NCBI GenBank assembly: GCA_017792405.1
Contig: CP051231.1
Span: forward strand, 1,218,011 to 1,282,010
DNA length: 64,000 nt
Source: Oceanicola sp.
Lineage (GTDB): Bacteria > Pseudomonadota > Alphaproteobacteria > Rhodobacterales > Rhodobacteraceae
Direction of reading: 5' to 3'
Notes under the pieces: generated by a model
What the model was told of the DNA's origin: nothing
Databases searched by the model: none
The model's input: the letters and a program-made list of their open reading frames with translations, nothing else
Translations under genes and position numbers: made by a program
Part shown: in pieces, positions 16,284 to 25,160 of the stretch
How the letters are laid out: every line of letters begins with the position of its first letter
Position numbering within the stretch: position 1 is the first letter of the stretch

Positions 16284-17099
16284 TCAGGCGACGAGTGTCA
16301 CCGTGGAGGCGAAGAACATGGCCTGGCTCACGGCAAGGCGCACCTGCTCCTCGGTATAGGGCTTGGTGATCAGGAACACCGGCTCCGGCTTTTCACCAGT
16401 CAGCAGACGCTCGGGGAAGGCGGTGATGAAGATCACCGGCATCTCGCCGAACTCTCCCAAGATGTCGTTCACCGCGTCGATGCCCGAGCTGTTGTCGGCC
16501 AACTGGATGTCGGCGAGGATCATGTCAGGGCGTTCCTGCTGCGCAAGCTGCACCGCGCCCTTGTGGGTACGGGCGACACCGGTCACGCGGTGACCCATCT
16601 GGGCGACCACGGTTTCGAGATCCATGGCGATAATCGCCTCGTCTTCGATGATCATGACCTTGCCGCTGATCGAGCGGGCCATCTCTTCCTGCGCGGTGGC
16701 GACCATCTCTTCGGCCTCTTCTGCCGTGCTGTTGGTGATCTGGCCGATCTGCGCATAGGAGAACTGCTCGATGGTATATAGCAGCAGCGCCTCGCGGGTG
16801 CCCGGGGTCAGCGGCGCCATGTGGCGCTGCGCTTGAGCGGCGAGGAAGCTGTCATTCTCGCTGGCTTCCACCGGGGCGCCGGAGCTTGTCCAGATCGCGT
16901 GGAAGGCTGCGAAGAGCGCCACGCGGGGGCTCTGGGAGCGGTCGCCGAGATCCGGATCGTCGAGCATGGCCTCAAGCGTGGCGGCGGCATAGGCGTCGCC
17001 CGACTTTTGGCTGCCCGTCAGCGCTCTGGAGTAGCGACGGAGATAGGGGAGTTCACGCGCGATACCGTCAGCGAAGCTTTCGGAGGATGCACTGTTCAT
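16284..17099 (-). CDS. phyR: PhyR anti-anti-sigma response regulator
   Basis: A 271-aa general stress response regulator. Residues 1 to about 140 are a sigma-factor mimic domain (ARELPYLRRYSRALTGSQ, then a sigma4-like FSYAQIGQI); residues 147-265 are a receiver domain with acidic pocket EDE, phospho-acceptor Asp197 in LADIQ and Lys246 in TKPYTEE. When phosphorylated, PhyR binds the anti-sigma factor NepR and releases EcfG. It is divergent from nepR-ecfG, and both directions have a GGAAC-N16-CGTT promoter in the 181-bp gap. Confidence 0.96.
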   Translation of the reverse strand: MNSASSESFADGIARELPYLRRYSRALTGSQKSGDAYAAATLEAMLDDPDLGDRSQSPRVALFAAFHAIWTSSGAPVEASENDSFLAAQAQRHMAPLTPGTREALLLYTIEQFSYAQIGQITNSTAEEAEEMVATAQEEMARSISGKVMIIEDEAIIAMDLETVVAQMGHRVTGVARTHKGAVQLAQQERPDMILADIQLADNSSGIDAVNDILGEFGEMPVIFITAFPERLLTGEKPEPVFLITKPYTEEQVRLAVSQAMFFASTVTLVA

Positions 17100-17131
17100 G
17101 TTGCCTTACCCATAGTTTTTATAAGCGTTCG

Positions 17132-17163
17132 GGAACCAAACGTGACCCCCGGCGTTTGGTTCC
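17132..17163. promoter_or_regulatory. Overlapping divergent EcfG promoters
   Basis: An 11-bp perfect inverted repeat GGAACCAAACG/CGTTTGGTTCC with a 10-bp centre. Read on either strand it gives GGAAC, 16 bp, CGTT, the EcfG consensus: rightward at 17132-17156 toward nepR-ecfG and leftward at 17163-17139 toward phyR. A second rightward candidate with GGTT as -10 lies at 17194-17218. Confidence 0.85.
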
Positions 17164-17280
17164 AAATTAAAATGTGACACAGGGATTTTTTTGGGAACCA
17201 GATGGCCGGACATGGGTTGTGGCCACAAAGGAGCCTGCTTTTGCGCGGGTAAGGGACGCAGAAAGGTTAGAAGGTCGGAA

Positions 17281-17445
17281 ATGAAAGAGCAGGAAAAACA
17301 GGCGAACGAGGGGCTGCGCCGTCAGATTGACGAGAACCTCCGTCGGGTCTTCCAGGCCCAGGTGGAGGAGGATGTACCCGATCGGTTCACCGATCTCCTC
17401 AAACGGCTGCGTGAGCAGGATAGCAGGAACGGAACCGCTGAATGA
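17281..17445 (+). CDS. nepR: NepR anti-sigma factor
   Basis: A 54-aa helical protein that holds the sigma factor EcfG inactive until PhyR~P binds it. The core NEGLRRQIDENLRRVFQ...DVPDRFTDLLKRLRE is the NepR signature. The ATG at 17281 gives the normal short length; a longer frame from 17191 would run over promoter elements. The last four bases overlap the ecfG start (ATGA). Confidence 0.95.
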   Translation: MKEQEKQANEGLRRQIDENLRRVFQAQVEEDVPDRFTDLLKRLREQDSRNGTAE

Positions 17446-18020
17446 CGCGCGCTGCACCTGAGCAGGCCTCGGCCGATCCGCGTGACGAGATCGTCGAGCA
17501 TCTTCCGGCCATGCGCGCCTTTGCCATGAGCCTCGCCCGAAATTCCGCCCAGGCCGACGACCTCGTGCAAGATGCCGTGGTCAAGGCGTGGAGCAACTTC
17601 GACAAGTTCAAGGTCGGCACCAACCTGCGGGCCTGGCTTTTCACCATCCTCCGAAACACCTTCTACTCGGCGCGCCGTAAGTCTGGCCGCGAAGTGGCGG
17701 ATGTGGATGGCATCATGGCCGGTGGGCTTGCCTCCAAGCCCGATCACGATGGCCGGCTCGCCTTGGCCGACTTTCAGGCTGCCTTCGCCACGCTTCCCGA
17801 TGAACAACGCGAAACGCTCTGGCTCGTGGGTGCGCTTGGTATGTCTTATGACGAGGCGGCGGAGACTTGTAACTGCGCCGTGGGCACTGTGAAGAGCCGC
17901 GCCAACCGGGCCCGCGCCCGCCTCGCAGAGCTGCTTCATCTGAAGGATGACGAAGAGCTGGAGCTGACCGACCAGAGCACCATGGCCGTGGTGGCTGCCA
18001 GCATCACCCCGCTCGGCTGA
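17442..18020 (+). CDS. ecfG: General stress sigma factor EcfG
   Basis: A 192-aa ECF sigma factor. Region 2 includes AMSLARNSAQADDLVQDAVVKAWSNFDKF and a RAWLFTILRNTFYS helix; region 4 includes LPDEQRETLWLVGALGMSYDEAAE and GTVKSRANRARARL. It directs RNA polymerase to GGAAC-N16-CGTT promoters, several of which are seen in this window. It is coupled to nepR and followed by a histidine kinase 11 bp downstream, so regulator and signalling genes form one unit. Confidence 0.96.
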   Translation: MTRAAPEQASADPRDEIVEHLPAMRAFAMSLARNSAQADDLVQDAVVKAWSNFDKFKVGTNLRAWLFTILRNTFYSARRKSGREVADVDGIMAGGLASKPDHDGRLALADFQAAFATLPDEQRETLWLVGALGMSYDEAAETCNCAVGTVKSRANRARARLAELLHLKDDEELELTDQSTMAVVAASITPLG

Positions 18021-18031
18021 GCGAGGGGGAG

Positions 18032-19867
18032 GTGCGGAACTACGCGCAATCGCTGATCTTCAGGGTCGCCGTGATGCTCACGGTGGCCCTGTTGCCCGTT
18101 GGGATCATCGCCTTGATGCAAACGGCGAACGTGGCGCGGCAGGCCAGCGAGCTGAACCGCTCGGCGCTCTTCGGGCGCACCGTGTCGGACGTGGAAGACA
18201 TGCGCGAGTTGCTCCACGGCGGCTTTGCCTCGGCGCGGGTGCTGGCGACCTCGGTTGTGGGGCTGCGCGATGACCCGGCGGCCTGCTCGGAGCTGATGCG
18301 CCAACTGGTGGACCGCAGCGTTGTTTATACCCTCGCCACCTTCATCGACACCGAGAACCGCAGCGAGTGCAACTCGCGCGGTGAGCCTTATGACCTGGAA
18401 GGCTCCAGCGTTGCGGCACAGATGGAGGCGAACCGCGTTCCGATGGCCGAACTGCTGGAGCGTGGGCGCATCTCGGGGCTTGAAGTTATGGTGCTGGCCT
18501 ATCCGGTTTATCAGGATGGCGTTTACCTCGGCTTCGTTTCGATCTCGATCGAGGAAGATGACCTCTCCCGCCGGGAAGACAGCGTGGGCGCTTCCGCGAC
18601 GGGTGAGGTGGAGCAGGAGCCGATTGACCTTGTGACTTTCACTGACGAGGGCAGGGTGCTGATGTCGGACCTGACGCAGGAGCAACTTGATGCCGAGTTG
18701 CCACAGGAGGTCTCGCTGAAGGCGCTTGTGGGCGGCGGGGTTACGGCATTTTCGGGCGAGAGCCAGACCGGGGAGGCGCGGGTCTATACCCTTGTGCCAA
18801 TCATCCCTGGGCTCGTGCATGCCATGGCGATCTGGGAGGATGAGGCACCCGACGGGCTCAACTGGTACAGTGCCGCGCTTTTCCCGATCCTGATGTGGGT
18901 GATTTCGCTCGGCGTGGCCTATATCGCCGTGCACCGGCTGGTGCTGGTGCATATCCGCCGGCTGCGCTCGCGGATGATCCGCTTTGCCGCCGGGCACCGC
19001 AGCCTGAACACGGTGCCCGATGTGTCGCGGCGCGCGCCCTCCGAGTTGCGCGAGATGAACGAGACCTTTGAGAGCATGGCGGAAACCATCCTCCACGATG
19101 AGGCCGAGCTGGAGAACGGGATTCACGAGAAGAACCTGCTGCTGCGGGAGGTGCATCACCGGGTGAAGAACAACCTTCAGCTCATCGCCTCGATCATGAA
19201 CATGGAGATCCGCAAGGCGACGGGGGAGGAGGCCCGCACCACCCTGCGCCGCATTCTCGACCGGGTGCTCGGGCTGGCAACGGTGCATTCGAGCCTCTAC
19301 CAGACCTCGCGGCTTTCGGTCGTGCATGCCGATGCGCTGCTGAACGCGATCCTGCGCCAGACCCTCAGCACCGCCCTGCCGAAAGATGCGGGCGTGAAGC
19401 CGAAGATGGAGATCGAAGATCTGACCATCGCGCCGGATCAGGCGGTGCCGATCTCGCTGCTGACGACCGAGGCGGTGACCAATGCTACCAAGCATATGGG
19501 CCACCCCGACGGTCCCGGTTCGGCCTGGTTGACGGTTGAGTTGGAAGAGCTCGATCCGGTGGAAGACAGTGAAACCGGCGAGATGGGGCCGCCACGGGCG
19601 CGGCTGACGGTGGCGAACTCCATCGGTGAGCCGCTGACCCGCGATTTCACCCCGCCGTCGAGCAATGGCCTCGGCAGCCAGTTGATCCGTGCCTTTGCGG
19701 CCCAGCTTGGCGGCAAGCTGGAAGTTGTGCCCGGAGAGGAAGAGTATCGCCTTGCGGTGACCTTCCCGATCGAAGAACAGCCAGAGGGTGAGCCGGAGGC
19801 CGAAATCGCGCCGGGCGAGCGCACGGTGCCGCCGCGGAGCCTGCCCCGCGAGGACAGCGCGGCATGA
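18032..19867 (+). CDS. HisKA_2-type sensor histidine kinase
   Basis: A 611-aa membrane sensor kinase. Membrane segments near residues 8-29 and 277-297 enclose a periplasmic sensing region of about 245 residues; a HAMP-like linker leads to REVHHRVKNNLQLIASI with the phospho-accepting His pair at 375-376, and a HATPase domain with NATKH and GLGSQLI. This is the kinase type usually placed beside phyR/ecfG loci, so it may phosphorylate PhyR (inference). GTG 18032 follows GAGGGGGAGG. A Pro/Glu-rich tail ends the protein, and the PLD gene start overlaps its stop. Confidence 0.9.
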   Translation: MRNYAQSLIFRVAVMLTVALLPVGIIALMQTANVARQASELNRSALFGRTVSDVEDMRELLHGGFASARVLATSVVGLRDDPAACSELMRQLVDRSVVYTLATFIDTENRSECNSRGEPYDLEGSSVAAQMEANRVPMAELLERGRISGLEVMVLAYPVYQDGVYLGFVSISIEEDDLSRREDSVGASATGEVEQEPIDLVTFTDEGRVLMSDLTQEQLDAELPQEVSLKALVGGGVTAFSGESQTGEARVYTLVPIIPGLVHAMAIWEDEAPDGLNWYSAALFPILMWVISLGVAYIAVHRLVLVHIRRLRSRMIRFAAGHRSLNTVPDVSRRAPSELREMNETFESMAETILHDEAELENGIHEKNLLLREVHHRVKNNLQLIASIMNMEIRKATGEEARTTLRRILDRVLGLATVHSSLYQTSRLSVVHADALLNAILRQTLSTALPKDAGVKPKMEIEDLTIAPDQAVPISLLTTEAVTNATKHMGHPDGPGSAWLTVELEELDPVEDSETGEMGPPRARLTVANSIGEPLTRDFTPPSSNGLGSQLIRAFAAQLGGKLEVVPGEEEYRLAVTFPIEEQPEGEPEAEIAPGERTVPPRSLPREDSAA

Positions 19868-22865: not shown

Positions 22866-24218
22866 TCAACCACCTTCGTATTCGGGGAAGCTTTTCAGCT
22901 GCTCCTCGGTGGTGTTCACATAGGCGCGCAGGTCGTCACCTTCGGCTTCTTTCTGGAGCGAGATGCCCTTGAAGCTGATGGCAACCGGCTTTTCGCCAAT
23001 GCCGAGGAAACCGCCCACGTCGATCACCGCATCGGTGACCATGCCGTCGGAGGAGATCAGCACTTCGGAGATCTCACCCACGCGGTTGTCGTTGGGGTCG
23101 TAGACAGCCAGACCGCTCAGATCGTCGGACGACAGTTCGGTCACCATCACTTCGGCGTAGCCGTCGCGGGTGAAGCCTTCCATCGTGCCTTCTTCAGCCG
23201 GAGCTTCGGCCATGTCGGTCTCGGTGGCGTCGGTTTCGAGGGGTTCCTCGGTGGCGTCGCCAGCGGTCAGGGCTTCGTCAGTGGCTTCTTCGGTCGCTTC
23301 GGCGCCCTCGGCCATTTCCTCGCCAGCTTCGTCGGCAGCAGCTTCAACCTCGGCACCGGCTTCCGCCATCTCTTCCGAGGCTTCTTCACCGGCAGCTTCG
23401 ACTTCGGCGCCAGCTTCAGCCATCTCCTGCTCGGCTTCTTCGCCAGCAGCTTCGACTTCAGCACCAGCTTCGGCCATCTCTTCCGAGGCTTCCTCGCCAG
23501 TCTCTTCGATGGCGGCTTCGCCTTCGGCGACCTCTTCGGTCATCTCGGCTTCGGCTTCGTCGGCGGCGTTGTCACCGGCTTCGGCCATGTCCGTCATCTC
23601 TTCCGAGGCGTTCGGATCAGCGGCCATCGGGTCGGCGGTCACGTCATCCGTTTCGGCCATGTCGACCTCTTCGCCGGGGGTCTCTTCCAGCGGGGTGGCG
23701 ACGGAGCCGTCTTCGGCTTCAGCCTCCTCCATGGCGGCGGGTTCGGTGAACTCGAACGCCGGGGCCTGGTCGAGCGCCTCACGGCTGGAGGCGATGGTCA
23801 CGAAGTACTCGCCGGGCGAGTTGCTGTCGGCCACCAGCTTCAGGGAGTCCATCGTCAGGGCAACCGGCTTTTCGCCGATGCCGAGGAAACCGCCCACGTC
23901 GACGATCACGCCTTCGACTTCGCCGGTGCGGGCGAGGATCACGTCGCTCACCTCACCGATGTCTTCCCAGCCGGCATCAGCTTCTTCGACGCCTTCTCCA
24001 TATTCCATCTCTTCGGACATGGCGTAGACGCGCTTGCCGATGAAGTTGCTGGCCATCACGTCCTGCTCGTCGGCGGACTGGATGAAGCCGCCTTCGGCCA
24101 TAATCTCGGTCTGCGCTGCGGGATCATCGGTCGCGGTTTCGGGGGCGGTGGTGTCCTGTGCAAAGACAGGCATCGCCAGCGACGCCGTCAGTGCGGTCGT
24201 TGCAAGAATGCGTTTCAT
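22866..24218 (-). CDS. Secreted twin PRC-barrel protein with acidic repeat linker
   Basis: A 450-aa protein with a signal peptide (residues 1-20, MPVFA cleavage) and two PRC-barrel domains, near residues 55-150 and 350-440. Each domain ends with the same VGGFLGIGEKPVA motif, so the domains arose by duplication. Between them lies a roughly 180-residue Ala/Glu-rich linker with repeated EEMAEAGAEVEAA units, predicted helical and strongly acidic. Role unknown; secreted PRC-barrel proteins are common in Rhodobacteraceae envelopes. A GGAAC-type promoter upstream suggests stress control. Confidence 0.85.
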   Translation of the reverse strand: MKRILATTALTASLAMPVFAQDTTAPETATDDPAAQTEIMAEGGFIQSADEQDVMASNFIGKRVYAMSEEMEYGEGVEEADAGWEDIGEVSDVILARTGEVEGVIVDVGGFLGIGEKPVALTMDSLKLVADSNSPGEYFVTIASSREALDQAPAFEFTEPAAMEEAEAEDGSVATPLEETPGEEVDMAETDDVTADPMAADPNASEEMTDMAEAGDNAADEAEAEMTEEVAEGEAAIEETGEEASEEMAEAGAEVEAAGEEAEQEMAEAGAEVEAAGEEASEEMAEAGAEVEAAADEAGEEMAEGAEATEEATDEALTAGDATEEPLETDATETDMAEAPAEEGTMEGFTRDGYAEVMVTELSSDDLSGLAVYDPNDNRVGEISEVLISSDGMVTDAVIDVGGFLGIGEKPVAISFKGISLQKEAEGDDLRAYVNTTEEQLKSFPEYEGG

Positions 24219-24277: not shown

Positions 24278-24302
24278 AACTGGGGAATTAGGGGTTTGTT
24301 CC
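24278..24302 (-). promoter_or_regulatory. EcfG-like promoter of the PRC-barrel gene
   Basis: Leftward GGAAC (24302-24298), 16 bp, AGTT (24281-24278); one mismatch from the CGTT consensus. The start codon is 60 bp downstream. Confidence 0.5.
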
Positions 24303-24326
24303 TGCGATTTATTTTTCAATTTAACG

Positions 24327-24351
24327 GGAACAAAAATAGAGCGGCCGCGTT
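24327..24351 (+). promoter_or_regulatory. Consensus EcfG promoter pointing into a gene-free gap
   Basis: GGAAC (24327-24331), 16 bp, CGTT (24348-24351), a full match. It points right, where the next genes are leftward or far away, so its product is probably the non-coding transcript at 24358-24457. Confidence 0.7.
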
Positions 24352-24357
24352 ATTGCG

Positions 24358-24457
24358 CGCCTGCGGGAATTAATAATGTGCGGTGAAGGCGCGCTGGGAT
24401 GTGCGAATTACCGCCGATCCGCGAAAGAAAAAGGGCGCCGCGAGGGCGCCCTTTTTG
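24358..24457 (+). ncRNA. Candidate EcfG-dependent small RNA
   Basis: A gap of about 100 bases that starts 7 nt after a consensus EcfG promoter and ends in the T-run of a strong hairpin. Internal pairing is possible (GCGCCT with AGGCGC; GCGGT with ACCGC). No open frame with a ribosome site fits inside, and the neighbouring coding genes run leftward. Caulobacter has an EcfG-type (sigma-T) controlled sRNA, GsrN, so such a gene is plausible. Inference from promoter plus terminator only. Confidence 0.55.
24428..24456. terminator. Bidirectional terminator
   Basis: AAAAAGGGCGCC (24428-24439) pairs with GGCGCCCTTTTT (24445-24456) around a 5-base loop. T-runs exist on both sides, so it can end the leftward DUF1328 gene and the rightward candidate sRNA. 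Confidence 0.88.
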
Positions 24458-24477: not shown

Positions 24478-24648
24478 TTACGGCGTGCGGCCGCGCATGG
24501 CCCGGGCGACCATGGCCACCACGAAGAGCACGAGGAACACGAAGAAGAGCACCTGCGCGATGCCTGCACTGGCGCTGGCGATGCCGCCAAAGCCGAACAG
24601 AGCAGCGATAAGTGCGATAACGAGGAAGGTAAGGGCCCAACCGAGCAT
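24478..24648 (-). CDS. DUF1328 small membrane protein
   Basis: A 56-aa protein with two membrane helices, starting [20 protein letters not shown] and ending with ARAMRGRTP; this is the DUF1328/UPF0391 family (YtjA type), often stress-induced. ATG 24648 lies behind AAGGAAA; a 71-aa frame from 24693 adds a non-conserved basic leader. An EcfG-like promoter lies upstream and a strong terminator follows. Confidence 0.88.
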
Positions 24649-24710: not shown

Positions 24711-24736
24711 AACTGCGATAGTCTGACGCCGGTTCC
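24711..24736 (-). promoter_or_regulatory. EcfG-like promoter of the DUF1328 gene
   Basis: Leftward GGAAC (24736-24732), 17 bp, AGTT (24714-24711). Same AGTT variant as upstream of the PRC-barrel gene. Confidence 0.45.
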
Positions 24737-24760: not shown

Positions 24761-24785
24761 GGAACCTTTGAGCCGCCGCCTTGTT
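24761..24785 (+). promoter_or_regulatory. EcfG-like promoter of the DUF883 operon
   Basis: Rightward GGAAC (24761-24765), 16 bp, TGTT (24782-24785), 43 bp before the DUF883 start. One mismatch in the -10 element. Confidence 0.5.
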
Positions 24786-24827: not shown

Positions 24828-25160
24828 ATGGCACAGGCCAAGACGACTGCAAACACCAGCAACACCACCCCCTCCGATGAGGTCTCGGCCCAGATCGCGG
24901 CGCTGAAGTCCGATATCGCCAGCCTTACCAACGCCGTTGCCGAGCTGGGCCGTGCCAAGTCGGCCGAGTTCCAGAACTATGCCAAGGGCAAAGCGGCGGA
25001 TGCCAAGGCCAAGGCGCAGGAAGGCGCTGACTACATGAAGCACAACGCCGAGTTCGCTTACGGCAAGGCCAATGACTTCGTGGTCGAGCGCCCGGCGACC
25101 GCCATCGGCATTGCGGCGGCAGTCGGCTTTCTCGTTGGTCACATCTCGGCCCGCAAATAA
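24828..25160 (+). CDS. DUF883 (ElaB/YqjD-like) protein
   Basis: A 110-aa protein with a hydrophilic coiled-coil-like body (EVSAQIAALKSDIASLTNAVAEL, then Ala/Lys-rich repeats) and a C-terminal membrane helix AIGIAAAVGFLVGHI followed by basic residues, the ElaB/YqjD architecture. In enterics such proteins are stationary-phase induced, inner-membrane anchored and ribosome-associated. ATG 24828 follows AAAGGAG. First gene of a three-gene unit with the holin-like and Crp/Fnr genes. Confidence 0.85.
   Translation: MAQAKTTANTSNTTPSDEVSAQIAALKSDIASLTNAVAELGRAKSAEFQNYAKGKAADAKAKAQEGADYMKHNAEFAYGKANDFVVERPATAIGIAAAVGFLVGHISARK

Follow-up and report, generated by a model that had tools for sequence, protein, structure and literature searches.

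What does a sigma-EcfG promoter do when no gene lies in front of it? An orphan promoter of this kind was found in the 64,000-nt stretch of DNA analyzed here (the window), where it points rightward into the gap between two genes. The initial annotation had read it as the start of a candidate general-stress small RNA (sRNA) gene.

Features of the locus

The features used below are listed by position and strand. Genes were assigned with Pfam, whereas the orphan promoter, the candidate RNA and the terminator were read from the sequence.

16284-17099, minus: phyR
17191-17445 (within), plus: nepR
17442-18020, plus: ecfG sigma factor gene
18032-19867, plus: HWE histidine kinase gene
22866-24218, minus: gene for a secreted PRC-barrel protein with two PRC domains and an acidic Ala/Glu-rich linker (PF05239, E 2.5e-19)
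24278-24302, minus: EcfG-type promoter of the PRC-barrel gene, GGAAC-N16-AGTT
24303-24326: AT-rich spacer separating two back-to-back -35 boxes (25 bp between the 5' G's)
24327-24351, plus: orphan EcfG-type promoter, GGAAC-N16-CGTT
24357-24361, plus: GCGCC, a GC-rich discriminator word that follows the -10 box and precedes the expected (inferred) start
24358-24456, plus: predicted non-coding transcript of approximately 100 nt (candidate sRNA), body not conserved
24428-24456, both strands: hairpin terminator, bidirectional in this strain
24478-24648, minus: gene for a small DUF1328 membrane protein, convergent to the orphan promoter (PF07043, E 3.3e-16)
24711-24736, minus: EcfG-type promoter of the DUF1328 gene
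24761-24785, plus: EcfG-type promoter of the DUF883 gene, 25 bp from the paired DUF1328 promoter
24828-25160, plus: DUF883 (ElaB-like) gene (PF19029, E 4.6e-7)

The orphan promoter was found exactly where it had been annotated, and both neighbors, the PRC-barrel and DUF1328 genes, run leftward as described. The terminator, a hairpin of AAAAAGGGCGCC-GCGAG-GGCGCCCTTTTT with T-runs on each strand, is bidirectional, also as described. In addition, three EcfG-type promoters that the initial annotation had not mentioned were observed, belonging to the PRC-barrel (minus), DUF1328 (minus) and DUF883 (plus) genes. The phyR/nepR/ecfG stress locus lies approximately 6-8 kb from the orphan promoter within the same window. 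In the PRC-barrel protein itself, the two PRC domains are separated by an extended acidic repeat (EEMAEAGAEVEAAGEEA-like; 23150-23750), and the total length of the protein varies among species.

Matches to GGAAC-N16-CGTT numbered 5 in the 64-kb window against 1.5 expected, and 85 in the whole genome, where the reversed control pattern had 152. Thus, the bare motif is not rare, and the case for the promoter rests on its conservation.

The gap had been described as free of fitting reading frames, and a coding reading was likewise rejected here: the open frames spanning the gap extend through the terminator, and sister species do not preserve them. No tRNA or tmRNA was found in the region, and no Rfam family matched it at the gathering score; permissive Rfam matches were all far under that score and fell mostly on the terminator or were gap-filled. 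The predicted RNA has a fold z-score of -2.98, to which the terminator hairpin contributes part.

Conservation within the genus Vannielia

The seven available Vannielia genomes (Rhodobacteraceae), including that of the window (G000), were compared. All seven keep the DUF1328 and PRC-barrel genes with a rightward EcfG promoter between them, which has perfect GGAAC and CGTT boxes in six genomes and reads GGAAC-N17-AGTT in one. The non-coding sequence around this promoter, including the spacer and the transcript, has diverged across the genus. Since the promoter keeps its place in 7/7 genomes while its surroundings diverged, it is under selection and more than a chance match. The orphan and PRC promoters, two opposed near-consensus EcfG promoters, also keep a conserved spacing, with -35 boxes 24-25 bp apart in every genus member. 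By sequence, the promoter, its pairing and its spacing are therefore conserved.

The RNA is not. Compared with the sister genome G003, the RNA body differed at 14 of 75 positions (18.7%), the least conserved stretch of the region, whereas the flanking genes differed by 1-6% (DUF1328, 2/174; DUF883, 9/333; next gene, 20/324) and no differences were found in the terminator (0/32) or the PRC leader (0/59). In the other five species the body varied in length and was unalignable. A blast search of the region within the genus returned one full relative only, the other matches being unrelated terminator hairpins. Apart from the terminator, the RNAalifold consensus of the seven genus RNAs contained just the DNA palindrome GTTCC/GGAAC and no other shared structure, and their individually predicted folds had no common 5' loop. 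Neither conservation of the body above the neutral level nor a covarying fold, either of which would mark a conserved sRNA, was found in the Vannielia comparison.

The terminator hairpin is common to the seven species. Its leading T-run measured 5-5-5-2-2-1-2 bases in the rightward direction, compared with 5-5-6-6-4-3-4 bases in the leftward (DUF1328) direction. A good rightward terminator was present in three of the seven species (G000, G003 and G002), and the rightward T-run was weak or absent in G005, G006 and G001. These tallies indicate that the terminator is better kept for the DUF1328 mRNA than for the rightward RNA, and in the genus it probably serves mainly DUF1328. Of the promoter-terminator pair whose conservation the initial annotation had made decisive, the promoter was thus kept throughout (7/7), whereas the rightward T-run of the terminator was lost in several species.

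These data bear directly on the proposal of a general-stress sRNA gene, according to which an EcfG-driven RNA of approximately 100 nt, ended by the terminator, would base-pair with mRNAs in trans as GsrN does. GsrN is a sigma-T-dependent sRNA of Caulobacter with an exposed 5' C-rich loop; most of its predicted homologues are located close to ecfG, and proximity is used as a criterion outside Caulobacteraceae (PMC5869019). The candidate resembles GsrN in its EcfG-type promoter, its predicted intergenic RNA of approximately 100 nt, its intrinsic terminator and its general-stress regulon. Of the features used to recognize GsrN, a near-consensus EcfG promoter lies upstream and the ecfG-nepR-phyR genes are close (16284-18020), but the exposed 5' C-rich loop is lacking, with no cytosine run in the 5' part of this RNA. 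The candidate further differs from GsrN in having no sequence or structure conservation within its genus, terminator aside, and in being a predicted transcript. Classifying it as a GsrN homologue is not warranted.

What remains of the sRNA proposal is a real, genus-conserved EcfG promoter near the stress locus that would yield a terminated RNA of approximately 100 nt in this strain. The promoter present in all seven species, the nearby ecfG locus (a criterion in the prediction of GsrN homologues; PMC5869019), the good rightward terminator of three genomes, the GCGCC shared near the 5' end and the fold z-score all agree with it. Selection on the RNA as such was unsupported: the fastest-changing segment of the region is the body, which is unalignable and folds conservedly only in its terminator; the rightward T-run is weak or missing in several species; the C-rich loop and an Rfam match above the gathering score are lacking; and comparable orphan promoters of other genera run into unrelated sequence. 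We therefore regard a trans-acting sRNA as rather unlikely, and as less likely than a promoter kept as companion to that of the PRC gene. In this particular species, the RNA may still function in the manner of a short stress RNA.

Partners of PRC promoters in other genera

PRC homologues of several other genera are preceded by an EcfG box 75-84 nt upstream of the start codon, the position that it also has in the window. A near-consensus divergent partner was found at 5 of 20 PRC promoters outside Vannielia (expected, 0.03 per locus), at spacings of 25, 34, 35, 35 and 57 bp. The partner was absent at the remaining 15 loci and is thus not needed in general.

In genus g136, the partner promoter was present at 35-36 bp in 9/9 species with a close PRC homologue. 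In seven of them it points at a gene that has a conserved leader of its own, and in two (G187 and G198) at a convergent gene. In genus g68 (G073 and G185), the partner stands at 34-35 bp and is aimed at the end of a convergent gene, taken to encode glucose-6-phosphate isomerase. Since the partner is kept despite differing neighbors, it tracks the PRC gene, not the sequence beyond.

Two other explanations can be weighed against this pattern. The first is a convergent or antisense device, in which the rightward transcript would meet or overlap the DUF1328 mRNA and lower its level by collision or RNA duplex formation. DUF1328 is convergent and EcfG-driven in 7/7 Vannielia genomes, the weak or absent rightward T-run in G005, G006 and G001 makes read-through into its 3' end plausible, and the orphan promoter in the genus of G073 likewise aims at the end of a convergent gene. 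However, a strong terminator precedes the DUF1328 stop codon in this strain, and seven g136 species offer no convergent target, the gene faced by the partner being co-directional. We give such a device little likelihood.

The second explanation, that the promoter is a relic that formerly drove DUF1328 or another right-side gene since inverted or lost, agrees with the arrangement in G015, where the PRC gene is divergent to DUF1328 and each has an EcfG promoter. The spacing there is 99 bp, unlike the 24-25 bp of Vannielia, and gene-less partners recur in other genera. Moreover, 6/7 Vannielia species have both boxes (-35 and -10) intact beside unalignable sequence, so selection is still acting. 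We give a relic as little likelihood as a convergent or antisense device.

In g136, the oxidoreductase-like gene beside the PRC gene (L080, L193-L195 and L198-L200) has a leader in which one block, ATGTCGTTTTCGTCTG[CT]CAAAGGTCGG...GATCAGGCATTGATGGC, is strongly conserved and possibly a regulatory element of its own.

Spacing of divergent EcfG pairs

Divergent EcfG pairs in 1.44 Mb of fetched loci clustered at 14-16, 23-26 and 34-35 bp. In 26 non-redundant strict pairs at 12-40 bp, a set that holds many homologous DUF1328/DUF883 pairs from different genera, the vector strength was 0.83 near 10.6 bp (0 of 2000 uniform simulations as high), the range of the periodicity test having been chosen after the pairs were viewed and the period having been suggested by them. 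Given the many DUF1328/DUF883 pairs, a strict pattern was also run, as an independent search, over 296 genomes, one per genus. This search returned 49 pairs in 41 genomes (control hits, 4), with peaks at 24 bp (9 pairs), 35 bp (6 pairs) and 14 bp (3 pairs). Phasing was again observed (P approximately 0.007 for distances of at least 12 bp; 0.04 with all 49 pairs from 7 bp up), and it was weaker family-wide (R 0.49), with several pairs off phase. Thus, spacing by helical turns (14, 24-25 and 35 bp) appears to be a preference of divergent EcfG pairs across Rhodobacteraceae and not a rule.

The spacers of 23-26 bp pairs were 60% AT; the overall figure was 36%, and the sequence upstream of unpaired sites had 45%. 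From genus to genus, the DUF1328/DUF883 pair shifts in spacing mostly by steps near 10 bp (14, 24-25 and 34-35 bp).

Within the window's own genome, the near-consensus pattern in the 23-26 bp spacing class was found in the two pairs of this locus and in one further half-match. The third GTTCC-N23-GGAAC site (L202, G000:C1:130083-130136) has an EcfG-like promoter on one side only.

A probable discriminator word, GCGCC

Among 18 orphan promoters that partner PRC genes (Vannielia, g136 and g68), which are not phylogenetically independent, 9 have the word GCGCC downstream of the -10 box, at a distance of up to 14 nt. It occurred in 0/18 PRC-side promoters and 0/39 DUF1328 promoters, with a background of 3.9-5%. 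When the fetched DNA was scanned for near-consensus EcfG sites with GCGCC or GCGCGC behind them, nearly all the hits were these orphan promoters.

ECF promoters start approximately 6-8 nt past the -10 box, and with the start inferred in this way GCGCC falls in the discriminator. If the true start were further upstream, GCGCC would be the 5' end of the RNA, which would favor the sRNA reading. The rRNA promoters resemble the orphan promoter in having a GC-rich discriminator. The G/C content of the discriminator sets the sensitivity of a promoter to DNA supercoiling (PMC8422995). The orphan promoter is like the GC-rich stable-RNA promoters implicated in supercoiling sensing (PMC8422995) in its GCGCC-containing discriminator beside the -10 box; it differs from them in being an ECF-sigma promoter with no rRNA, in its start being placed by inference and in its response to supercoiling being proposed only.

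A proposed effect on the adjacent PRC promoter

The explanation that we favor, in which we place about as much belief as doubt, is that a divergent sigma-EcfG pair lies here, of which one half drives the PRC gene and the other, the orphan promoter, has no gene and would act locally on the PRC gene, its RNA being a by-product. In its favor are the pairing kept in all seven Vannielia genomes, the divergence of the RNA, the partners in other genera, the preferred spacings, the AT-rich spacers and the enrichment of GCGCC. Under general stress, both -35 boxes, on either side of the AT-rich spacer, would be occupied by EcfG-RNA polymerase, and the orphan partner would raise or tune the firing of the PRC promoter locally. 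This could occur through shared upstream alpha-CTD contacts, through negative supercoiling between the diverging polymerases or through both. The GC-rich discriminator would restrict opening of the orphan half to underwound DNA. Rightward transcription would yield a short RNA, mostly a by-product, that ends at the DUF1328 terminator in this strain. We infer the polymerase binding, the cooperation of the pair, the role of supercoiling and the discriminator, and the lack of function of the RNA. Counterpoints are the absence of the partner from 15 of 20 loci in other genera, the weaker phasing family-wide and the possible place of GCGCC at the 5' end of the RNA. Furthermore, promoters are usually conserved for the sake of their transcripts, and rapid evolution is possible for sRNAs.

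A broader and distinctly more doubtful proposal is that Rhodobacteraceae EcfG genes use gene-less divergent partners, spaced by whole turns and provided with GC-rich discriminators, as enhancer-like devices for polymerase docking or supercoiling that would set the output of the adjacent gene. In the limited literature searched, no paper joining EcfG with divergent promoters was found, and none clearly described helically phased back-to-back ECF promoters. If these proposals are true, an alternative-sigma promoter could be conserved for its effect on a neighbor and not for its RNA, and searches based on a promoter plus a terminator would overcall stress sRNAs. Cooperation of divergent EcfG promoters in a large marine family would then follow a simple rule: whole-turn spacing, with a GC-rich discriminator on the silent half.

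Relation to other divergent promoters

The pair resembles the bidirectional and closely spaced divergent promoters of bacteria (PMC10268837, PMC4469952) in its predicted firing in opposite directions from one short segment. Unlike in those promoters, both halves here are EcfG promoters placed back to back without shared elements; further differences are the preferred helical-turn spacings and the gene-less state of one half.

A different arrangement was observed between phyR and nepR-ecfG (17132-17163), where a palindromic EcfG promoter, GGAACCAAACG...CGTTTGGTTCC, comprises two opposed promoters that overlap fully. Its -31/-32 geometry occurred 35 times in the fetched loci, as counted with a loose motif.
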